From Desmodesmus armatus (taxonomy: Eukaryota; Chlorophyta; Chlorophyceae; Sphaeropleales; Scenedesmaceae), in NCBI GenBank assembly GCA_007449985.2, contig VIIQ02000056.1:372001-436000 (forward strand): DNA of 64,000 bases, written 5' to 3'. The notes under the pieces are model-generated. The model saw nothing but the letters and a program-made list of their open reading frames with translations. It made no database searches and had not been told where the DNA came from. This document shows, one piece after another, positions 12,596 to 64,000 of this stretch; positions within the stretch are counted from its first letter, which is position 1, and each line of letters begins with the position of its first letter. Made by a program: the position numbers and the translations under genes.

Positions 12596-14040
12596 GCTGC
12601 AGTTGCAGTGTGCTGCTGTCAGGCCTCAGCGTTGTCCTAGCCATGGTGTAACCTAGGCAGTGGAGAGATTGGGATTGCCAGCCAGAGAGGGGGGAGGGGG
12701 AAGCCCTCAGCAGTGAGTGTGGCCTTCGCATGGCTGCACAACCTAGTGATGCTAGGAGCAGCAATATGACCAACAAATTATGCAATCGCATACCCGTCAC
12801 AATGGGCCTTGCCTGCTGCGGGTTTCGGGCAGGTGGCTGACCAGTGCAACTGTCAGCACCGCTGTGCAGTTACGCATGTTTCTTGTCAGTGGTGCATGAC
12901 ATTGCAAATTGCATTTGTGCAATTTGAAGTTTGCGAAGCAGAGCACAAAGCAGAACTACAACAACACTTGAAGAGAGAGGGAAATGCAAAGGTTTTTGCC
13001 AAATCATTGCAGAACACTGCCACCGGGACTGTGTCAACGTGTTGTATGCAATCTGGCAATGAGGATGCCTATTCATAGTATGCTGTGTCGCAGCTTTGGT
13101 CTGGACGCCTTCTATTGTACTGTGAGGTTGCTTTGTTAGGCTTTCGGTGCCTGGGGTGGCGGTGGGGGACCCAGTGCTAGTTACATTGTGTTCTGTGTTC
13201 CCATCTTTGTGTGTTCCCAGTGTCTCCACAGGAAACCTTGCTACCTCCCCGGTTCCGGGCACTGCCTCATAGTATGCTGTGGGGAAGCGTCTGAGTTGTG
13301 CTATTGTTGACATTCAAGCCAGTAGGGCCAGCACAGTGGCCATGTGGACTCGACAATGGCTGTCAATGGAAGACTATCAACCACACGCGCCATGCATTGC
13401 TGCATCTGTTGCAGGTGAGCAAATCTGGATGAAATTGGCGACCATCGTGCTCTCTGCAGCTGCAAGCCATATTGGTATGGTCTTTCAACCAGCAGATGAC
13501 ACCATGCACATGCCCTGTGTGTTTGAACATTAAGGCGACGGCAAAGCCTCAGCGACTGTTGGGTGCAATCATTGCACAGACCTCTTTGACGAGGCGCTCC
13601 ATAACCACCATAGTCTTGTCCCTCTGCTGCCCCTTTCACGGGGTTATGCTGCACAGGAGAAGGCTGCAGTCGCAGACATGTCCTGTACAGGCCTGTCTGC
13701 CTAGGCGGCAAACGCAGAGAGACTGGTCAAGTTGAAGAGTTGCGCAACACACAGCCACCATACAAAAGCCTGGTTCATGCATTCCCAAGCAACACACACG
13801 TACTGAAAGTCGTCATGCACACCAAATTCCACTTTGCTACAAACCAGCCTTGCCGAGTGCCGTCGCTCGGGTCTGTCCGACGTTTGAAACCGGCGATGAC
13901 TCACGACCTCGCTGCGACAAAACGTGAGGAGCAGTCATTTGTTTCATCATTTTGATATCCTGTACGTACGTGTCTGCCGACCCCGCTTTATCCAGCTGCG
14001 AGTTCGACGTGTCTGCTGTCAGATCACCTGTGGACAAGCT
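12596..14040. other. Upstream region of F-box/LRR copy A, part of the duplicated block
   Basis: No coding exon recognised. From about 13013 it can be aligned with 18839 onward, including GTAGGGCCAGCACAGTGGCC and the stretch around CCGTCGCTCGGGTCTGTCCG, which indicates shared promoter and 5' UTR sequence. Confidence 0.6.
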
Positions 14041-17000
14041 ATGTCTTCGTCGCCGTCTGTACAGGTGAGGCAGAGTCAAGCGGGGTCACTCACCTTCAAC
14101 CATTTTCACTGAATGTTGTCTTACGGTTAGCGCAGCCCGGATGCTCTTACTCTGCACCCGTCATGGCATCTAGATCTGCTGCTGTCTCATGAGCCTTCCC
14201 TGCTTCTTCTACTTGCAGGAAGGCGGTGCCCATAGTCCACAAGACCCACAGCTTCAAGATGCAGTGGTTGAGCGCATCCTGCGCTACATGCCCCTGTCCA
14301 GCCGCTTGACCACCTGCTCTACTGTATGCAAGGCCTGGGCCGCTGCTGCTGTCAGGGTCACTAGCACCGTGCAGTGCGCAGGGCAGCAGTGGGACCCTGC
14401 ACACATGCTGCCACACCTACAGAGCTGGTTGCACAACCCAGAGCAACAGTTGACAAGCCTGCGCATCGCACCACAAGATGACGGGCGGGTGGACGTCTTT
14501 GGCAAGCCCAACACCAGCCTCTTGGGCATGCTGCAGCTGCCGCACTCCAAGCTGGCACAGCTACAGGAGCTCAGCCTGGAGCGTCTTGAGATCAAGCTTG
14601 CTCCTGTTACTGCTGTTAGCATGGTGCAGCGGCAGCCGCTGCCCAGCATGGCGCTGCCTCTGGCAGAGCCCTCTGACAGCATCCCTCCTCAAATGGGCGC
14701 TGCTGCAGCACCCAGCTATGCCAATGCACAGCCAAATGCGAGCGGTGCCCTCTCTCTGCTGCCGGCCCTGAAGCGCGTGGACCTGCAGCATTGCACCCTG
14801 GACAAGATATCAGATCTTGTCTCGCTGGCACAGTCACCAGCCCTCACCAGCCTGCAGCTTTTGGGGATCAAGTCCAGGGACACAGACGTGGATAGCATTT
14901 GCTCGCCTTATCTGCCCCGCATGTCTGCTAAGTTCAGCTCAGCCATTGCCAGCTTGCTTGAGGGGCTGCCAGGCCTGCAGGTGCTTTCAGTGCAGGCAGC
15001 TGCCCCCAGTCTGCTGCAGCCAACAGCCCTCAGCAGCATCGCAGCCATGTCCGGCTTGCAAGACCTCAGCATGTGGTTCGGGGACCTGGATGCACAAGAT
15101 GAATGGCCCGCTGCACTGCCCCATGGGCTCACACGCTTTGATGTTGGACTTGGGTGCATGGTCTACGGAGGCGGCTTAAGGCACCAGCCCCACATTCAAG
15201 CATGCCTCAAGAACGTCCAGCACATGCAGCGGCTACAGGAGCTGAAGCTGCACCTGTGTGACTTTGACCCTGGCCTGTTGTGCAACATCACAGGCCTGCA
15301 CAAGTCGGCTGTGATTTGCTTCCAGGCCAGCAAGCAGGCATGCGCGCTCTGCTGAGCTCCTTGCAGGGCCTCACTCAGTTGCAGGCAATTCACCTGGCTT
15401 CAAACCACCGCTGCTCTTATGAGGCAAGAGCGATTCCGCTTGAGCTGTTTGCAGCCCTCACCGCATCAGCACAGCTCACGAGGCTAGAGCTTTGCGACTA
15501 TGATGTCCAGTCGCTTACTCCAGGTGCACTGCAGCGCATGTTCCCAATGGGGCGCAGCATGCCGCAGCTGCAGGTGCTGCACATCAGGGAACAATTCTAC
15601 AAAGGTAGTGATCGGAGTGGTTGGTGCGTGGGTGGCAGAGACATCGCTGCCATTGCCTCAGCTTGCCCAGGGCTGCAGGAGCTTGAGCTCATGCGTGTTG
15701 TGAGGCCAGGTGCCACGTTTGATGGGCTGCAGCGGATGCCGGACAGTTTGAGCAGCTTGACAGTTGGGGGCCCGGCATTTGACGATGCCGCAGCTGCTGA
15801 GGTTGCGCAACTCGTGCAGCTGCAGTCCCTGTCAGTAGAGCACGCACCTGAATTCACGGCAGTGGGGTTCGAGTGCCTGACAGCTCTGACCGGTCTGACA
15901 AGACTACATCACCGTGGCGACCGATGTGGGTGGGGTAATGGGACTTCCCGTGGTCATCACATCCCCATCCTGCAGAAGAGGGATATGCAGCTTTCCATTG
16001 AGAAGGTGAGCGTGTGTTTGAAGCTGGTGCAAGCATTGATACGTGCACACCCAACATGCCGCAAGCAACACTGTGCAAAAAATCACACTGCCTCTCACCA
16101 GCTCATCCATGAGCCAGCTTTGCTGACATACCGGTTTGGTAACATGGCTTACCAATGCCGCTGGCGTGTAGCTGATCCCTAGCCCGGGTTGATGATCCCA
16201 TAACTGGCCCAGGTTGATAATGATCGATGAAGAAGTGCCTTCGGGCAATTGTCGCAGTAATCAGCAAGGTGGCAGAGCGACTTTTCTGGCCAGCACGACA
16301 GATGTGAATGAGCCTCAGGCTCAGCGATTGGCTTGACTGAAGCTTGGGACAATTACAATTGCTGCTCGCTCAACCACTGTGTTTGTTGCTTGTGCTCTGC
16401 CCTTGCGTGATGCCCATACTTTTTGTTGCAGGGGCCCATTTGGCAGCAGGTACAGGACTTCTGTGAGCAACTGCCAGCTGCACAGGCGGAAGCAGACATG
16501 CAGGCAGACATTGACGCTGCGCAGCGCAGGCAACCAAGGCGAGTCTTGGTGACAGACCCCTTTTAGTGGATGCCAGGTAATGCCAGGACGGTCCTCAAGA
16601 CAGAATGGGACAGGACAAGATTTCTAGGGGGATTGTGCGAGCACTATGTGCTGAATTCAGGTGCTTAGGCATGGGTCTCCAACGCATGCCCCCTGTTGGT
16701 GTCACACCAATTTGGTGGTGGCCGAAGTAGCCCAGATCACACCATGTCATGTACGCATGCTGTCTGGTTGTCAAGTTTGGCTTGCGCTTGCCAAGCCAGT
16801 GGTGGGGGCTCCTTTCAGCTGCCAGTGTCGTTTTGCAGCGGCCTGCATCCGTCCTTCTGAGTTCTGATCAGCGTTTGGCCGCCAAACGGTGGCGGTGCGA
16901 TGCAGAGCAAGGTGGCTGCAATTGTTGGCATCCAAGCATTGCAGGTACTCCGGGAGTGTTGCTGTCCGTGCTGCTGAGCACCTTGTACTATGGTTTGGCA

Positions 17001-18838: not shown

Positions 18839-19657
18839 ACAACTGCAACTGGGACAGTTTCAACGTCCGCAATCTGGCAGTGCGCTTTTCTATGGTGCAT
18901 GGTGTGGGGAAACGCCTGAGTTTTGTGCCTTGCAGACCAGTAGGGCCAGCACAGTGGCCATGTTGCCTCGACGATGGCTGTCAAGATACTTTGACTTAAT
19001 GCGTCATGCGTTGCTTCAACTGTCGCATGCCAGGTGAGCGAAGGATAGTGGACTTAGTGCAAAAGGCTCCCCAGTCCACTATGAAGAGCAGCGGCAAGCA
19101 ATTGTGGTATGGCTGTATCCAACAGCAGACAGAACCAAGCGCATGGGTGTACGGTAAAGATCAGTAGCCGGCAAAGCCACAGCAGCTGTTGAGCGCGTCA
19201 TTTCACAGACCTGGCTGTACACGGCATCCAGGAGCCACCATTTTCTTGTCCCTTTGCTCCCCTTCTGTAGGGTCATGCCGCACTGGAGAAGGTGCAGTCA
19301 CAGACAGCATGCAGGAGGCAAATATGACTGGTCAAGTTGGAAGAGTTGCACCACACACAGCCACATACAAAAGCCTGGTTAGTGCATCACCAACCAGCAC
19401 CACAGATGTCATGCACACTCATCACCACGTGGTGCACTGTGCAAGGTGCAAGCAAGTGCTTCAACCTGCCTTGCCGAGTGCCGTCGCTCGGGTCTGTCCG
19501 ACGTTTGAAACCTGCGATGACTCACGAGCCCGCTGCGACGCAAGAGAAGAGCAGCCATATTCAATCTTAGATGTTGATGTTCTGTACGTTGAGCCGATCC
19601 CGCTTTATCCATCCGCGAGATCGACGTGTCTCCTGTCAGATCACCTGTTGACAAGCT

Positions 19658-22167
19658 ATGTCTTCTTCACCGTCTTTACAGGTGAGGCAGAGTCAACTGT
19701 GGGACCAACCACGTTGACTTCTTGTTGTCTTACGGTCAGGGCTGCCCGGCTGCTTTCACGCTGTACCAGTCATGATCATGGCATCTGCTGATGCCGAATT
19801 TGCTGCCTCATGAGCCTGCCCTGCTTCTTCTGCATGCAGGAGGGTGGTTCCCTTAGTCCACAAGACCCACAGCTTCCAGATGCAGTCATCGAGCGCATCC
19901 TGCGCTACATGCCAATGTCCAGCCGCCTGACCACCTGCGCTACCGTATGCAAGGCCTGGGCTGCTGCTGCTGTCAGGGTCACTAGCAGCGTGCAGTGCGG
20001 GGGGCAGCAGTGGGATCCTGAACACATGCTGCCACACCTACAGAGCTGGTTGTCCAACCCAGAGCAGCAGCTAACAAGCCTGCGCATCGCACCACAAGAC
20101 GATGGGCCGGTGGACCCCTACAGGCCCAACACCGGCCTCTTGGGCATGCTGCAGCTGCCGCACGCCAAGCTTGCACAGCTACAGGAGCTCAGCCTAGAGC
20201 GTCTTGAGATCAAGCTTGCTCCCAGTGCTGCTGTCAGCAGGGCAGGGGCCTTAGACAGCAGGCCTCCTCAGAGGGGCGCAGCACGCAGCAATGCCAGCAC
20301 ACAGCCAAATGCGAGCGGTGCCCTCTCTCTGCTGCCAGCCCTGAAGCACCTGGACCTGCAGCATTGCACCCTGGACAAAGTATCAAACCTTGTCCTGCTG
20401 GCACAGTCACCAGCCCTCACCAGCCTGCAGCTTCTGGGGATCAAGTCGAGGGACACACCTGTGGTTACCACTTGGTCACCTTGGCGGGCTGATTACTCTG
20501 CCCATTTCAGCTCAGCCATTGCCAGCTTGCTTGAGGGGCTGCCAGGCCTGCAGGTGCTCTCAGTGCAGGCAGCTCAGCTGCCTGCACTGAGAGCACTGGG
20601 GTCGGACCCCAATCTGCTGCAGCCAACAGCCCTAAGCAGCACCACAGCCATGTCCGGCTTGCAGGACCTCAGCCTGTCCTTCGGGTCCATGGATGCGCAG
20701 GATGAATGGCCCACTGCACTGCCCCATGGGCTCACACGCTTTGAGATGGGTGTTCGCGGCATGGTGTACGGGGGTGGCTTGATGCACCAGCCCCACATCC
20801 AAGCATGCCTCAAGAACGTCCAGCACATGCAGCGCCTGCAAGAGCTGAAGCTGCAGTTGTGTGACTTTGACCCCAGCCTGTTGTCCAGCATCACAGGTCT
20901 GCGCAAGCTGCACCTAGCCAGCTGCGTGCTGCTGCCAGGCGAGCGAGCCGGCACGCGCGCTCTGCTGAGCGCCTTGCAGGGACTCACCCAGCTGGAGGCT
21001 ATCCACCTTTCTGCAAAGTGCCAGTGCTCCTACGAGGCAGACGTGGTCCCGCTTGAGCTGTTTGCAGCCCTCACAGCATCGCCACAGCTCACCAGCCTGG
21101 AAATTTGCTATGAAGACGTCCAGCCGCTGACTCGGGGTGCAGTGCAGCGCATGTTCCCACTGGGGCGCAGCATGCCGCAGCTGCAGGTGCTGCGCATCAG
21201 GGACCAGTACTATAAAAGGGGCGAGCGGAACGCTTGGTGTGTGGGTGGCAGAGACATTGCTGACATTGCCTCTGCTTGCCCAGGGCTGCGAGAGCTTGAG
21301 CTCATGCGTGTTGTGAGGCCGGGTGCCACATTTGATGGGTTGCAGCAGATGCCTGACAGCTTGACCAGCTTGACAATTGGGGGCCCCGCATTTGATGATG
21401 CTGCAGCTGCTGAGGTTGCGCAACTCGTGCAGCTGCAGTCCCTGTCTGTTGACCATGCACCTGAGTTCACGGCAGTGGGTTTCGAAGGCCTGACAGCTCT
21501 GATTGGCCTGACGAGGCTACACCACCGTGGTGACGCCTGTGGGTGGGAGAATGCATTCTTTGGTGAGCACATCCCCGTCCTGCAGACGAGGGACATGCAG
21601 CTCTCCATTGAGAAGGTGAGCTTGTGACTGGAGCTGGTGCAAGCATTGCCGTAGTAGTACTTGCACGCAAGCAACACTGTGTAAAGGTCGCACTCTGCAC
21701 TTCACCTGCTCATTGCGGAGCCAGCTTTGCTGACACACCGGTAGTGCCACTACCAGTGGTACCATAGCTCACCACTGCAACCCACTTGTAGCCCGGGTTT
21801 ATGATCATTAACTGGCCCAGTTTGATCAATAGTTGATGATCAAATATTGCAAAACTTAGCAAGAGGAACTTTTCTGGCCAGCACATCAGCGTTGAATGGA
21901 GCTCAGCTGAGCCTGCAGGCTCAGCGGTTGGCATGTGACAACAGCAGCTGGTTCATCAACCATTTTGTTTGTTGCTTGTGCTCTGCCCTTGCGTGATGCC
22001 CATACTTTTTGTTGCAGGGGCCCATTTGGCAGCAGGTACAGGACTTCTGTGAGCAACTGCCAGCTGCACAGGCGGAAGCAGACATGCAGGCAGACATTGA
22101 CGCTGCACAGCCCATGCTACCGCGGCAAGTCTGGGTATTGGGAGATGACTTTCCAGGTCTAGGCTGA
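19658..22167 (+). CDS. F-box/leucine-rich-repeat protein, copy B
   Basis: Three exons: 19658-19681 (MSSSPSLQ), 19840-21615 and 22018-22167, both introns in phase 0, total 649 residues. The short first exon and its GTGAGG donor are preserved in both duplicates, so I prefer this start to an ATG at 19810 that lies inside the intron. The N terminus is an F-box (QLPDAVIERILRYMPMSSRL ... VCKAW), then LRRs of the LxxLxxLxLxxC kind (for example LPALKHLDLQHCTLD and LRELELMRVVRPG). F-box/LRR proteins usually recruit targets to SCF ubiquitin ligases. No Skp1 partner is nearby. The last exon gives an acidic/Gln-rich tail (QVQDFCEQLPAAQAEAD). Confidence 0.82.
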
Positions 22168-56003: not shown

Positions 56004-57457
56004 TCACTGCATGCGGTACTGCTTCCACATGTTCTCCACGCGCTGGTGCTGTCCCACAGTGAAGGAGCGCATACAGCTGTCATCTGAGTAGTCCATGAAG
56101 TTACGCACGGGGTCGTTGCCGGGCTGCGGGCATGTGTCCTTAGTGGCCGGGCAGCCCTCGGTGGGTGCAGCACAGAAAGGTGTGTCCTCAACAGCATCGC
56201 CACCACCAGTGCAGCCGTTCTGGAATGTGTGGTAAAGACCCAGCCTGCAGAGTGATACAGGGCAGCATCAAGAAGCAGCAGTTGGTCAGTCAGACACATC
56301 TCTCCAGCAGGTGCTGATATATTGAGGTAAGGTGCAGCCAGACTGCATGAGTATGTAACTGAGCTCAAAGCCACCCCCCGAGACACACACTCTACCACTA
56401 CGAACAGTCTCTGTGTGAGGTGGGTGACTGCGCAGTGGTGTCATGCTCACCAGTGGCCGATCTCGTGCACTGTGGTGCGGCCCATGTTGTATGGCTTGTA
56501 GTTGCCTCCTGGCAGTGTGTCGTAGTGAATGACCACGCCGTCCATCACCAGACCCTTCTTGCTCAGGTCCCAGGGCCAGCTGCTGTAGCCCAGCAGACCA
56601 CAGGCAGACAGGTCGGTGATGTACAGGTTGAGCGCGTTGGAGGCACCCTTGCGCAGCTTCTGCTTCATCTTGGCCTCATTGCCCTGGTCACACATGTCTG
56701 GCCCGGTCACTCGTGTGATCTCCTTGACCTGGAACACCCACTGCATGCCTGCCTGGTCGGAGGCAGTTGAGTAGGCCTCGTTCAGGGCGTTCAGCTGCTT
56801 CTCAACAGTGGACTTTGGTACGTCGGCAACCTTTGTGCCGTCGTCAGCGACCACGATGAACACGTGGGTGGGGATGATGTACTGCTTCACACCCCCGGTG
56901 GCAACCTGCGCAGACTCCTTGGCTGCAAACACTGCGTGCTTGTACTCCAGGCGCGCGATGCGGGCGGGCTCGGGGTCCAAAGTGCCACACCTGGTAGCAG
57001 CGACGGCGGCAGTGGCAAAGGGCGGAGATGGCGGTGGCAGGGGGACGGCACGGGCGGGCGGGCGGGCAAGTGCACAGGTGGTCAGATAACGCGAGGTACA
57101 ATGACATGGGAGGGCAGCATACAGTCTTGGCACGCTACAGCAGCACACGCACTCAAAAAGAAGCAGCGCAGGTTGTATGGACAACATTTTCAGGGCTGGA
57201 TGAAGGTTCCGCTCATCTTCCTGCCCAGGCCATTGCTGTGCTGAGCCCAGCCCCGTCCAGCTAGTCGCTGCGAATTCTCACCTGCGACCCTTGAAGGATA
57301 GCAATGAGCGACGTCTGCCATGCACCTCAACTGTTTTCTGCCATGCTGGTGTGCTGCCATGCTCCCCGCACGCGCTGACTTCCAGCACTTGCAGGGCAAG
57401 CAGCAGCAGCCCCACGCATAGGGCAGCCTTGCTGATTGCAGAACCACCACACTGCAT
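56004..57457 (-). CDS. Secreted zinc metalloprotease, M43 (pappalysin/cytophagalysin) type
   Basis: Three exons: 57282-57457, 56451-56990 and 56004-56244 (phases 2, 2), 318 residues. The N terminus is a clear signal peptide (AALCVGLLLLALQVLEVSAC), then a basic, possibly pro, segment with GRRRS. The catalytic domain has the full HExxHxxGxxH motif, HEIGHWLGLYH, interrupted by the second intron inside the Trp codon. After it come TFQNGC, EDTPFC and NFMDYSDDSCMRSFTVGQ, where the Met-turn (FMDYSDD) and Cys residues match the metzincin family M43. It likely acts in the cell wall, periplasmic space or outside the cell. Start is the ATG at 57457. Confidence 0.92.
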
Positions 57458-57841
57458 CAAGCTCAGTGCCTGTGTGTGTCACAATTGCAGACGGAGGACA
57501 GCAGCAGCTGTTTGGTGAGTACTGGAGCGGTGTGAGGGGTGCACTTTGGGTCCCCCTTTGGTCTGTACCACAACACCGACTGCTACAGGCCAAGGGCCCC
57601 CAGCATGCCGAGCCAGCTGGCCAGTCATGAATGCCATACAGGAGAGCTCTGGCATGTTGATGCACCTGCGCCGCTGGCCTGTGTGGTGCGGAGCAGTATC
57701 GGCGGTCTCAGCGATGGTGAGCAACGTGAGGCTCCACCGGCCCCGCACGTGAAGAGGGTGAAGCTAATGCAAAGCTTGCTGTAACTTTGCTGTTGTGCTG
57801 CACCGTTGCTCCGTTGCTGCTGGTCGGCAGCTATCGCACTG
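57458..57841. other. Spacer between protease gene and repeat-flanked element
   Basis: Upstream region of the metalloprotease; nothing else recognised. Confidence 0.5.
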
Positions 57842-58502
57842 TCGCTTTGGCAGCAAGTAGTCAGACCGTCACTGGGACCACAGGCTTGAAATGCAGGGAC
57901 AGATGGGAGGGGTCTGCACACAGCTGGCTAGGGCTAACAAGTACCTACCAGATCGTACAGGCAGCTGCAGTGCTTGCCTTGAGTGTCTGCACAGCAGCTG
58001 CATGTGAAAAATGGGGTCTGTCAGCTGAAAATGGCCAGGAGGGGACCAGCAGCTGCTGCCTCAACAACATGCTGTAACAGCAGCTGCATGGCTTGTGCAC
58101 CCACCCACGCACCAGCAGGGAGCTGACTCTCAAGCAGCTTTTTGAACGCCAACAGCAGCAGCGAGGCCAGGCTGTCTCAGTCTCCAACAAACTGTCTCAC
58201 AACAAGGCAACAGCAGCAGCTCACAACCCAGCGCTGATCAGGCAACACACAGGCACATATGCCCCTGGGATTCAAATCTTGATTGCTCTATCCAGCTGTA
58301 AGCTGCTCTGGAGCTTTGAACGCAAACCTCACTTTCTCATTCAACGGCCATAATGTCGTCCGAACTGCCATGGGGCAAAAGGGCCCAGTTGCGCCCTAGC
58401 AGGGCCCCATAGGGATTCTTTGTTACGGAAAAGCATTTCTCTGCACTTGTCGACCCAAGACAGCAGCGGTGACCTTCCACCTGGCTTACTTCTGCCGAAC
58501 TG
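57842..58502. repeat. 661-bp direct repeat, left copy
   Basis: Identical by eye to 62022-62682. The ends are weak inverted repeats of each other (TTGGCAGCAAGTAG near the left end, CTTACTTCTGCCGAA near the right end). It contains an 86-codon frame (58093-58353, with TLKQLFERQQQQ) that may or may not be used. Confidence 0.9.
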
Positions 58503-58602
58503 AAGGTCTCACATGTGTGACCACCCCCCTGATTAAACCCCATTTGAACCCTAGCCCCAGCCCATTGGGCACTGCTGCTTCAGTGCTTTCAAATGCACCC
58601 TG

Positions 58603-60827
58603 TTGCTGTTTTCAACCACGCGCAGGGCACCAGCTAAGGAGGAGCCTGTGCACAGCGGTCACAACCGCCACACCCCGGCCACCAGGAAGTCATGCGTCGT
58701 GGCTTGCGCCCAGGCTCTCGTCGACGGCAAGGTCGATTATGGCCTTGCCGGCAGACTATATAAGAAGGTGCGCAAGCAGCTTGGTGGTGACAAGCTGGCA
58801 GAGGATCCCAAGCCTGTATTGAAGGGCAGATGGGACCACTTTGTGGAGTACGGTGACGTCGAGGACAACCTCCGCACAGGCCGCCCTGTCCTTATCAGCA
58901 GAGAAGATGCCCTAACAGCTAGTACAGCCATCAAGGCAGGAAGGCTGCACACAAAGACCCGCAAAGGACACACCATCACCCTGATATCCTACTTCACCAC
59001 AGTGCGGCAGGCGACGGTGGAGTCTGATGCTGTCAAGGGTGTCATGCAGAAATACAACTGCACCCCCCACCAGCTGTACAACGCCATGATGAGGGAGGAT
59101 CCCAACCTCGGGCGGCGCAGTTTTGCGTTGAAGTACCGGCTGACAGAAAAGGAGAAAGCTGCCCGGAAAAGCTTCTGCAAGCAGCTGCTGGCAGAGTGGA
59201 ACGTCGCACAGGCGTTGCTGAATGCAATCCTAGCTAGGATTGTGCAGTGCGACGAGGGCCGCTGGACATACAACACCTACACCCATGCGCATGTCAGGGC
59301 ATATGTGGACCTGCAGCACCTCCCCCTGCACGACTACGTGTCGCTGCCAACGATCAAGGGGGACAAGCAGCAGACAGTTCACTTCTTCATATGCGTGTCA
59401 GCACACCCCAGCTTCAGCGACAAGAACGGCTTGGTGTACTATGAACTCACCACAGGCACCACCCACATCCTCCGCTGGTTCAACAAGCTTGGGCAAGAAG
59501 GCAAAGAGCCCTTTGTCTACCAGGTGAGCACAGTTACAAATTGACCAGCTGGTTTCCAAAGGCATCAGCAGCAGTTGCTGCTGCTGCTCCCACCCCAGCA
59601 CACAGCTTCTCAATGTGAGGCTTGCCAGAAAGCTCGTAGCTGGCAGTAAAAACAACACCCTTATGCTGCGATGCATATTCAACAGCTGCCATAACAATAT
59701 CTGGTGCCGCGAGGTCTGCATGATGCGCGCGTACGAGCGCCAGGCGGCGCTCGCAGCATACCTTGCTGCACTTGAAATCACGCTCAAATGCCTTATTCTT
59801 GCAACCATCCCTGAAGTGATAAGAATCGTCAACTTGTAGATACACGTCGCGCTTCCAGTTGTAGAAATCAATGCGACCATGGCAATCGGTCAAGTGCACC
59901 TGCCAACACCACTCCTGTGACTGCTGCTGCTGCGCAACTAGCTGCATGAACTTCCACTCTGCAGGGGGGATAACAGGACGGCCAGCAGCCTCCCATGCCC
60001 CACTTTCATAAGTGCAGAAGCAGCACATGAGTGCGACAGGCTTGCGCACAGCGTCAGGGGTGCACAACTTGAAGTGTTGCACCTTGTCCCGACACTCCGT
60101 AGTGCACCACATGAACTGCTGCTTCTTCTCTGACTTGAGCAACTTATACTCATTGCCAGCACGGTCCACCCACGTCACTGCTCTGTTGTGTGGCTTCTTC
60201 ACCCTGATCCCCCCCAGTTGATGTGCTGCCAAGGCCTTCCTCATCAATGCCTCCCTCCCTTTGCTGTTGCCGTGCTGTTGCTCCGCCATGCCGTGACCTG
60301 CAGAGGAAGGATGGAGCAGACGCAGCAAGCACTGTTACTGATGAGGTAGCTGACAACCTGTACAAGATGGTGGAGAAGTTTAGGAATGTGACTGGTGAGG
60401 ACCCCATCATCATGATGGACAACGTCCGCATACAGGCCAACATCCCGGATAAGATCATCGAGTCCCGCTACGGCACCATCACCCTGCCTGAAGGCTGCCG
60501 CCTTCGCTTCCCCCCCCACAGCTCAGACATTGATCAGCTGGTGGAGCACTCCATTGGTGCAGTCAAGGGAGCAGCAACAGACAAGGTGTTTGATGAATGC
60601 TGCCATGGGGTTGTGTTCTCGGGTGAGTCCCTGCGGCGCATCTTCAAGGGTGTGTTTAAGAGGTTTGAGAAGGGGAGCTGTACCACCGGGGGGTGGAGCG
60701 CAACATGCGCAAGCTGCCCACTGTGTTGAGGATTATCGCATCCGGAGAGGATGAGTGGTTCACAGATCCAGATGGCAAGCAGCACCATGGCAGCAACGGC
60801 GACTGGCCGAATGCAGGCGACCGCTAA
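58603..60827 (+). CDS. Tc1/mariner-like DDE transposase, intron-containing, C-terminal frameshift
   Basis: Exon 1 is open from about 58603 to 59523 and exon 2 starts at 60304; donor CAG|GTGAGC and acceptor CTGCAG|AGG join in phase 0 (FVYQ to RKDG). There is no ATG at the left edge of the open frame, so the true start, perhaps in an upstream exon, is unknown. The N-terminal third is basic with helix-turn-helix character. The catalytic triad is visible: Asp at 59251 (QCDEGRW), Asp at 60418 (MMDNVRIQ) and Glu at 60544 (DQLVEHSIG, matching the NPIEHVW box), with 41 residues between the last two. At about 60672-60680 the frame slips in a G-run: the direct frame ends at 60729, while a neighbouring frame continues with plausible coding (LYHRGVERNMRKLPTVLRII) to a TAA at 60825-60827. 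This copy may therefore be inactive. Confidence 0.75.
59524..60303 (+). other. Transposase intron almost filled by an antisense ORF
   Basis: 780-base GT-AG intron. The minus-strand ORF 59534-60289 occupies 756 of its bases, leaving 10 bases at one end and 14 at the other. Confidence 0.7.
59534..60289 (-). CDS. Putative Vsr/DUF559-type PD-(D/E)XK endonuclease nested antisense in the transposase intron
   Basis: An intact 251-residue frame from ATG at 60289 (context CACGGCATGGCGG) to TAA at 59534, with no introns. Residues 108-160 resemble the Vsr/DUF559 restriction-endonuclease fold: a helix Glu (PPAEWKFMQLV, E111), the strand RIDFYNW (D141), YLQVDDSYHF (Q152, D154, D155, H158), then D171 and the GRxxxxR-like segment CCERRLALVRAHH. 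Family members usually read IEVDG.QH at the second strand; here it is LQVDDSYH. Cys clusters at 62/66/76, 89/90/92 and 163/174/178/179 suggest bound zinc. A basic N terminus (KKPHNRAVTWVDR) may contact DNA. It may be a homing-type nuclease or an accessory factor of the element. The fold is inferred from motifs only. Confidence 0.6.
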   Translation of the reverse strand: MAEQQHGNSKGREALMRKALAAHQLGGIRVKKPHNRAVTWVDRAGNEYKLLKSEKKQQFMWCTTECRDKVQHFKLCTPDAVRKPVALMCCFCTYESGAWEAAGRPVIPPAEWKFMQLVAQQQQSQEWCWQVHLTDCHGRIDFYNWKRDVYLQVDDSYHFRDGCKNKAFERDFKCSKVCCERRLALVRAHHADLAAPDIVMAAVEYASQHKGVVFTASYELSGKPHIEKLCAGVGAAAATAADAFGNQLVNL

Positions 60828-62021
60828 GGCGTCAGCGCATGCAGCAGATGCAGCAGCAGCATGGCAGCAGTTTGCTGTCCAAGCCTGCACATGGCTGCGC
60901 ATGGGGTGTGTGTTCCCAGGGTATGCCACCTATAGGGTTTAGGGTTCAGCTGCAGCCACTGCTGTGGTGAGCATCAGTGTCTTCATGATCTGTGGCCAGT
61001 GCATCCGCTGAGCTAACAAGATGTAGTGCAGCCTGTGTTTATTCAAAGCACAGCCCTCAATGTAGTTGTTGCAAGTTTGATCAATGTAGTTATCAGGGTT
61101 GTGTGTGAGAGAGGGTGTTGGAAGTGCCACTGGCCCCCACCCAGGTGTACTGTTGGGCAGGCAGCACACATAGCAGCTGTCCAATCATTGATTCTGTCAC
61201 ATAAACTGGTATGTGTGGAGAGAGTTTGCAGCTTAGATGCCCCATCTTTACCTCATTGTGCTTGAGACAGGCACTACTGGGAGTTATGTCATGTCAACTG
61301 TGCCTGGTATTGCACTGTTAGCAGCTGTGCTTTCACAGCTGTGCAACCAGGCATGCTCGAGGCCGAATGCTATAATATTGAGTACGAAACGAGTTCATTT
61401 GCTGCGCAAGGAAAGCAACCTGGAAGCATCCAAGCCAACTTCACCCCTGTTCAAAGGCCAATGGTCCGCGCTTACATCAACATCACCCTCTGTAGCAACG
61501 TCAGTTTGTAGTAAATCAAGCATTCAACGAACAGCAGGCGTCTAGAGAGCAGCCGGTGCCCACAGCAGGAACAGCAAGCAATCTGCAGAGACTGCCAGCT
61601 TTCCAGGTGTGGCGGGCTTGTCGCGATAAGGCCAGTGCCAGTGTGACGTGCTTGACAGGTCCTCTTAAAGCATTCATAAGTCATTCATTTTGCTTTCGAG
61701 AGCTGCACGCAAGCCCTTTGGAAGTTTCGCGCCAGACATCACTAGCATCTGCTCAAGTCTGAAGTCAGCTGAGGCGTCTATGGCCCCGCTGCACCAGATA
61801 GACTCTCACAATGCACAAAAACACACATTTTGGTACACGCACCGCTGCGGATTATGCAGGTCCGCGACACCAGCCTGCCTGGAACGCTGCAGCAAGATGG
61901 GCAAAAACAAGCGCAGCAGAGCGAGTGACAAGTGAGTGCGATCAGATCTGCCCAGGTAGCACTGCAGCCTGGCACAGCTTGCGGGCGAGCAGCTGCACCA
62001 ACGGCGAAAGTCAACCAACCT
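60828..62021. other. Right-hand internal part of the element
   Basis: No further gene recognised between the transposase end and the right repeat. A short telomere-like stretch (60933-60946) lies here. Confidence 0.45.
60933..60946. repeat. Two telomere-like TTTAGGG units
   Basis: TAGGGTTTAGGGTT, about 105 bases after the transposase end. Confidence 0.7.
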
Positions 62022-62682
62022 TCGCTTTGGCAGCAAGTAGTCAGACCGTCACTGGGACCACAGGCTTGAAATGCAGGGACAGATGGGAGGGGTCTGCACA
62101 CAGCTGGCTAGGGCTAACAAGTACCTACCAGATCGTACAGGCAGCTGCAGTGCTTGCCTTGAGTGTCTGCACAGCAGCTGCATGTGAAAAATGGGGTCTG
62201 TCAGCTGAAAATGGCCAGGAGGGGACCAGCAGCTGCTGCCTCAACAACATGCTGTAACAGCAGCTGCATGGCTTGTGCACCCACCCACGCACCAGCAGGG
62301 AGCTGACTCTCAAGCAGCTTTTTGAACGCCAACAGCAGCAGCGAGGCCAGGCTGTCTCAGTCTCCAACAAACTGTCTCACAACAAGGCAACAGCAGCAGC
62401 TCACAACCCAGCGCTGATCAGGCAACACACAGGCACATATGCCCCTGGGATTCAAATCTTGATTGCTCTATCCAGCTGTAAGCTGCTCTGGAGCTTTGAA
62501 CGCAAACCTCACTTTCTCATTCAACGGCCATAATGTCGTCCGAACTGCCATGGGGCAAAAGGGCCCAGTTGCGCCCTAGCAGGGCCCCATAGGGATTCTT
62601 TGTTACGGAAAAGCATTTCTCTGCACTTGTCGACCCAAGACAGCAGCGGTGACCTTCCACCTGGCTTACTTCTGCCGAACTG
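62022..62682. repeat. 661-bp direct repeat, right copy
   Basis: Same sequence and orientation as 57842-58502; identity starts at TCGCTTTGGC and stops at GCCGAACTG in both. The offset is 4180 bases throughout, with no indel seen. Confidence 0.9.
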
Positions 62683-64000
62683 TGTGATTGCTTCGCTGGG
62701 AGCGCCGCTGACTCTGCATGCATTACAGCCACAGAGCCTGCCATAGTCTAAGAACATACACAGCGTACCTTGTAGACGGTCCTCTAGCTCTGCTCACAGG
62801 CTTGTCGGGCCTCCGATAGCAGGCAAGTGAAGTGACTTCCTGTGCTGGGATCTCGGCTGGAAGACTACGCTGTGTAGCTTATCAGAGCTTCTTAGCGTAA
62901 CGGATGCTTAATTTGGCGAAGAAGAGCAGTGAACGAAAAGTTTGCTTGTCTAGGCCGATCGAGGGTCAACTAGGTTGAAATATAGGTATTTGGTGAGTCG
63001 TCAGAAGAATGAAGAATAGCCTATCGTGACACGGGCCGCGGACATGGCCTGTCGAAACGCGTGAGGTTCAGGTCGGTTTTTGCACCGGAGTTCCCCCAGG
63101 CTTCTGGTGAGCATCAAATCGCACTGGGCGTACGACTTGCGTTCACAAGTACATTCATTAGCCTGCAGACGCCGATGGTGGCGTTGGGGGTGTGAATCAA
63201 GGTACAAGTACTGTCTGGGGTGGGGAGCTTCGGTGCTTGAAGCACTCGTGTGAACGAAAGGCAAAGATGTATGGCTGTCACAGCTTTCCCACTGGCAGCG
63301 CGTCAGTCACTGCATGTGCTAATCCTGGGCCCTGGAGAAGTGCTTGCTGACACATGGACATGGACACTCGCATGCATACTATCTGTTTGCTGCATGGATG
63401 CTATCACAGCATGAAAATCGTCACCTGCCTTTGGTTTCTGGGTTGTGGCTGTAAAATAGTCGCGGGGCCTTCTTTGGCGCAGTTGCGTCAGCCTTGCTTG
63501 ACAGTTTTTGGCATGACACTGCTGGCACTGAAGCCTGCTGGCATCCTGTGTGCACAGTAGTGCTCGAGAATACCTCCTCTGCCCCACTGGTGCTGAATCT
63601 GATGCGGCACTGCAGTGGCAGGCTCACAAGAGGTACAAGAGCTACATGGGGGCTGCCCCCTGACTGATCAGTCAGCGCCCTCATGATGGCCCTGATTTTT
63701 GGTCACAGGCTCGACGGTGCTGCATACATGCCCTCTGCACATTTTGCTCCACAGGGAGGGGGGGCTGGCGCTGTTATGAATGTGAGGCAGTGCACGTTGA
63801 CAGGCTGCAGCTGTGTTGCTGATGATCGTCACAATGCTGACGCATGCATTGTGCGTTTGACGATCAGGTGCAGGCAGATGCTTCAAACGGCAGAGGCACA
63901 CAGCTGGCGCAGCCTGCACGCACGCACACGCAGACTTCAGAGTGCTTCACGAGGCCCGCCTGCACCAGCAGCATACATAGTGCACGCCAGGGGGTCCGAA
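62683..64000. other. Right edge, no gene recognised
   Basis: Only short open frames without domain or splice support on either strand. Confidence 0.45.

Follow-up and report, generated by a model that had tools for sequence, protein, structure and literature searches.

A nuclease gene antisense within a transposase intron of a composite-like, multi-copy transposon in Desmodesmus armatus

Nested genes at the locus

The stretch of Desmodesmus armatus DNA analysed here (the window, 64,000 nucleotides) contains a composite-like transposon at 57843-62682 with two genes: a transposase gene split by an intron and, inside that intron, a nuclease gene on the opposite strand. The element is built as LTDR-INT-LTDR, where LTDR is a long terminal direct repeat and INT the internal region. 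The features are listed below; F2-F4 are three related element families from the same genome, A2 is an alignment of transposase homologues, and ORF is an open reading frame.

57840-57842, no strand: left target-site duplication TGT, read in the flank
57843-58502 (+): left LTDR, 660 bp, the same as the right copy at every base (100%); its ends form short, imperfect inverted repeats
58503-62022 (+): INT, about 3.5 kb
58627-59523 (+): upstream coding exon of the transposase, from the ORF, alignment A2 and DDE residues; no N-terminal ATG
59251-59253 (+): predicted first catalytic Asp (D1), from the family alignment
59524-60303 (+): predicted spliceosomal intron, GTGAG...CTGCAG, phase 0, at a position shared by F2-F4
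59534-60289 (-): nuclease gene, 251 codons plus stop, wholly intronic and antisense, from the ORF, homologues and a structural model with its fold matches
60304-60729 (+): downstream exon of the transposase, from the ORF and the family alignment
60418-60420 (+) and 60544-60546 (+): predicted second Asp (D2) and predicted Glu, from the family alignment
62023-62682 (+): right LTDR, 660 bp, identical to the left in all 660 bases
62683-62685, no strand: right target-site duplication TGT, read in the flank

The predicted intron, re-read in the sequence as GTGAGCACAG...GACCTGCAG (780 bp), leaves the transposase frame open when 59523 is joined to 60304, with FVYQ/RKDG across the junction. On the minus strand the nuclease ORF runs from an ATG at 60289 to a stop at 59534-59536 and occupies 756 of the 780 intron bases (97%), starting 14 bases from the acceptor end and stopping 10 bases from the donor end. 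The first-pass annotation had given these borders, lengths and margins exactly. The terminal direct repeats, the target duplication and the presence of over 60 copies, with many arranged in tandem, belong to a larger structure beyond that annotation.

The intron lies between the predicted catalytic residues D1 and D2, so that unspliced RNA would not give an active core. The acceptor CTGCAG at 60298-60303, like its equivalents in F2-F4, is a palindrome; the antisense strand thus reads CTGCAG too, which resembles an acceptor and lies shortly before the nuclease start. At the 5' side (58555-58630), where the upstream transposase ORF lacks an N-terminal ATG, a further exon is likely, perhaps starting from within the LTDR. 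Past the catalytic Glu (60660-60729) the downstream exon diverges from the C-terminus common to F2-F4; all 30 matches to the window's family among the fetched loci agree with the window here, so the divergence characterises the family and is not due to an error in this copy.

An intron trimmed to the limits of an ORF had been called non-random from this sequence alone. To examine this, we took the longest stop-free run in any of six frames in 2000 dinucleotide shuffles of the intron: its mean was 123 codons, and 4 of the 2000 shuffles reached 240 codons or more. GC-rich sequence makes long stop-free runs common, so on the single sequence the length of the antisense ORF is only modestly beyond chance. 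That part of the claim is thus weaker than proposed, while the recurrence of the nested arrangement in three other families is evidence that we regard as decisive.

The same nesting in four element families

Searching the genome (115.8 Mb, 831 contigs), we compared the window's family (F1) with families F2 (locus L029), F3 (L030) and F4 (L036). A gene for the RuBisCO small subunit, matched as three separate exon-like pieces on a 573-kb contig of this genome, marks the host as photosynthetic. In all four, an antisense nuclease fills a phase-0 transposase intron at the equivalent residue, with the donor directly after a Tyr-X pair. The introns measure 780, 799, 799 and 848 bp in F1 to F4, with donors GTGAG, GTGAG, GTGAG and GTGGG and the acceptor CTGCAG throughout, that of F4 having been picked from four in-frame AG sites by agreement with the other families. 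Within the intron, 10, 9, 9 and 21 nt separate the donor from the nuclease stop, and the distance from nuclease start to acceptor is 14 nt in F1, 22 in F3 and about 32 in F4. No ATG precedes the stretch of the F2 nuclease that aligns with F3 and F4, and an upstream exon might exist there.

The joined exons of the four families align across the junction with D, D and E conserved. Pairwise, the transposases are 28.4-44.5% identical and the nucleases 23.9-35.3%. For both proteins the pairing with the highest sum is F3 with F4 against F1 with F2. The agreement lends weak support to shared descent of transposase and nuclease, the comparison being one of four families with small differences. Because the nesting recurs in four diverged families, it is no accident, and on this comparison the nested pair is an old, retained two-gene design of a multi-copy mobile element. 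The comparison supports the suggestion that the two genes evolved together as one transposon: pair, intron position and strand relation are kept in all four, and the common grouping agrees weakly.

The families also share the surrounding architecture. Their LTDRs measure 660, 675, 674 and 653 bp in F1 to F4 and end in inverted repeats, a perfect one of 22 bp in F2 and imperfect ones in F1, F3 and F4; an AAGT core about 12-16 bases in is common to these ends. Arrays occur in F2, F3 and F4 as well as in F1.

Copies, arrays and excision scars

The genome holds at least 67 full-length F1 nuclease copies, 99-100% identical and free of stops, many in head-to-tail arrays with a period of about 4180 bp where the LTDR is shared or 3522 bp where it is missing. 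Pattern searches found 85 exact 3' ends and 77 exact 5' ends of the F1 LTDR, and 57 occurrences of a longer exact pattern from the LTDR 3' end into the start of INT.

A 3-bp direct target duplication was present in 11 of the 12 insertions for which both flanks were read and lay outside the family. Eight are single elements (TGT in the window, C1 AAG, C60 CAC, C151 CAA, C6 TCT, C190 ATC, C739 TAC and C546 GCT, the last about 1.5 kb shorter), two are arrays (C529 GAC, C318 GGG) and one is a solo LTDR (C165 TCT); the sole exception is the array C672, which has no duplication. The count omits C581, C647, C8, C572, C279:22885 and C351, where a flank is INT or INT-like, and C671, C551, C648, C80, C704 and C612, with one outer end read or a cut LTDR.

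Ten F1 junctions found with a strict pattern in loci L009-L049 join INT to INT without an LTDR. Compared with the INT-LTDR and LTDR-INT junctions, they retain a scar of CG (seven), CGG, TG or CTG (one each). CG is the outermost left end of the LTDR, TG and CTG are its outermost right end, and CGG is CG plus one G. The junctions may be alleles of each other or copies within an array, so that ten junctions are not ten events; the four kinds of scar suggest several separate excisions. F2 likewise has CG at an LTDR-less junction, and in F3 such a junction has TA once, against TA...TA where an LTDR is present.

The commonest LTDR-less junction of F1, CCTTCGAAGG, and that of F2, GTGCGCAC, are perfect palindromes. 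A dimeric nuclease could recognise such INT-INT junctions, which an LTDR interrupts. The F3 and F4 junctions that we read have no obvious palindrome.

Contig C193 (L035) carries a non-autonomous array derived from F3, with nuclease matches spaced at 2502 bp. The one unit read keeps the LTDR, the upstream transposase exon and the nuclease frame, which has no ATG of its own, and misses exon 2. Arrays can therefore grow without a complete local gene pair; either proteins acting in trans or simple unequal crossover would account for this one. In an F4 array on C246, nuclease matches are 3658 bp apart except for one interval of 4669 bp, and the 653-bp LTDR accounts for only part of the difference.

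Elsewhere in the window, a direct repeat of about 2.8 kb (13721-16550 and 19326-22136) has 82-94% identity. An ORF beside the insertion (56447-57277, minus strand) ends in HEIGHW, which we take to be a zinc-metalloprotease-like motif.

Relationships of the two proteins

A database search with the nuclease gave 11 relatives besides the window's own protein, with 46-68% local identity over 72-100% of the query, and a profile search added ten at 25-30%, of which one (P0029) is 98.9% identical to F4. The protein is recognisable in F2-F4 as well as in the 11 database relatives, with invariant nuclease-like residues. Fold matches of the structural model are Vsr/EDxHD-like, and the absence of His-Me finger enzymes from the list excludes nothing; no match at E 1 or better (best 1.3) came from a sequence search of solved chains. 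We provisionally assign the predicted protein to the Vsr/EDxHD-like PD-(D/E)XK type. It resembles Vsr and the EDxHD homing endonuclease I-Bth0305I in the predicted core fold (residues about 100-250) and in conserved Glu, Asp and His, and differs from them by an extra conserved N-terminal Cys/His region and by being transposon-borne.

The transposase is provisionally IS630/Tc1-mariner-like, by weak matches. Among 18 members, HTH_32 matched 7 at E up to 1, with a best value of 3.1e-6, and the window's own exon was not one of the seven; F3 matched HTH_32 and DDE_3 and F2 matched DDE_3, all below the curated cut-off, and SETMAR matches were weak (0.012 and 0.15). Points of likeness are the helix-turn-helix N-terminus of some members, a PxxSxDxxxxxEH-type motif at the Glu of the DDE core, short inverted ends (F2 begins CAGTG) and the 2-3 nt scars. 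Duplication of a TA target site is a defining feature of IS630/Tc1-mariner elements. The F3 LTDR boundary reads TA...TA, but none of the 11 F1 duplications is TA, and we therefore do not class the element as a Tc1-mariner member; it differs further in its terminal direct repeats and its second, nuclease gene. Tc1/mariner transposition leaves a footprint, as described in PMC3408717, and the scissile phosphates of mariner on the two strands are described as 3 bp apart (PMC5714172), so that scars of 2-3 nt fit a mariner-type transposase.

Possible mechanism and alternative explanations

The two-gene nested layout is well supported; the role of the nuclease in array expansion we infer. In the explanation that we consider probable, movement of the element falls to the transposase, and the nuclease cuts element DNA and so drives homologous expansion into arrays. 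The transposase would cut at the inverted ends of the LTDR and so mobilise a monomer, a solo LTDR or an array, leaving the 3-bp target duplications and 2-3 nt scars seen in the sequence. The nuclease would make double-strand breaks in the LTDR or at an LTDR/INT junction, and repair from a neighbouring copy would enlarge the array and offset the loss of LTDRs by excision. Placement in an intron may allow two opposed genes to share DNA without overlap of their mature coding sequences.

On the other hand, a homing endonuclease gene of Vsr/EDxHD type may have entered the transposase intron in a common ancestor and been carried along since, serving itself by homing into nuclease-less copies and not the transposon. 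We hold this parasite on a parasite to be unlikely. A purely selfish homing gene is expected to be lost at times, yet an empty or nuclease-less intron was not seen in the four families read, and both proteins favour, weakly, the matching family pairing. A genome search allowing up to 2 mismatches gave no F1 exon-exon junction. Each of the 16 matches to the joined transposase covers 57-68% of it, the length of the upstream exon, and none among the matches listed spans both exons. In all 15 homologues aligned in A2 (P0013, 97% identical to the window, is not included) the sequence runs past the donor into the intron, with the Val of the read-through donor codon right after the conserved Tyr-X. 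The first-pass annotation had proposed that the intron arrived as a mobile nuclease gene, and had looked to an intron-less or empty-site relative. Neither the homologue search nor the exon-junction search gave one; such an arrival may have taken place in the common ancestor of the four families.

That the nuclease is a partner of the transposase at the transposon ends, in the manner of TnsA and TnsB in Tn7, seems to us decidedly unlikely: with the 3-bp spacing of the mariner cuts (PMC5714172) and the Tc1/mariner footprint (PMC3408717), the 2-3 nt scars fit a transposase of that type cutting both strands unaided, and TnsA scores lower than Vsr and I-Bth0305I. An antisense ORF arising freely in GC-rich sequence, for which the shuffle averages might speak, is hardly credible and is refuted by conservation of the encoded protein, recognisable as it is in three other families and 11 database proteins.

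Comparison with known systems

Two systems share single aspects of the element. In Coe1 of sugar beet, putative long terminal repeats enclose a DNA transposase gene, but, as described, the transposase is of En/Spm type with eight exons and is accompanied by retroelement-like parts (PMC2426827). Antisense homing endonuclease genes in nuclear group I introns also place a nuclease gene on the opposite strand of an intron; there, however, the account is of a ribozyme intron in rDNA and a His-Cys enzyme (PMC9548176), whereas in the present element the intron is predicted to be spliceosomal and interrupts a transposase gene. That four diverged families have kept a gene within a transposase intron and antisense to it bears on how two opposed genes can be placed in compact mobile elements.

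Among known designs, KolobokP, found in animals, comes closest (Kojima and Bao, 2022; PMC9587614); its authors describe it as unlike any other DNA transposon. According to their description, it is likewise LTDR-INT-LTDR and makes short target duplications. One class of its LTDRs is about 660 bp long and has short inverted ends of its own; LTDRs also occur solo, are excised, and combine with INT into arrays of two kinds, (LTDR-INT)n-LTDR and LTDR-(INT)n-LTDR. Its INT encodes a DDE transposase and, on the complementary strand, a nuclease (PMC9587614). Long terminal direct repeats with their own inverted repeats are found in F1-F4, and multimers sharing LTDRs and INT-INT junctions occur here too. 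The KolobokP transposase is, however, a Kolobok enzyme and its nuclease a His-Me finger protein encoded downstream of the transposase (PMC9587614), whereas the present element has an IS630/Tc1-mariner-like transposase and a predicted Vsr/EDxHD-like nuclease, nested in an intron, in a photosynthetic eukaryote. The C/DxxH motif of Kolobok was not seen, as no [CD]xxH lies between D2 and E in F1-F4 in the alignment read by eye. Because this motif is absent there, the predicted nuclease fold differs and the nuclease is intronic, we liken the element to KolobokP without making it a member.

The KolobokP authors propose that the nuclease induces unequal crossover, and they present the resulting dual replication, by transposition and by nuclease-induced crossover, as speculative (PMC9587614). 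We see an even chance that the alga holds a second, independent origin of a composite-like, nuclease-carrying DNA transposon. An IS630/Tc1-mariner-type lineage would then have converged on the LTDR length class, multimers, LTDR excision and opposite-strand nuclease of KolobokP by way of an unrelated transposase and nuclease, the nuclease being fixed as an obligate gene in an intron that splits the transposase catalytic core. If so, the appearance of one design twice would speak for nuclease-driven array expansion as a genuine second way in which DNA transposons replicate. Sharing repeats, arrays and excision scars with KolobokP but neither its transposase nor its nuclease, the element offers a natural replicate, in an alga, on which the model can be tested.
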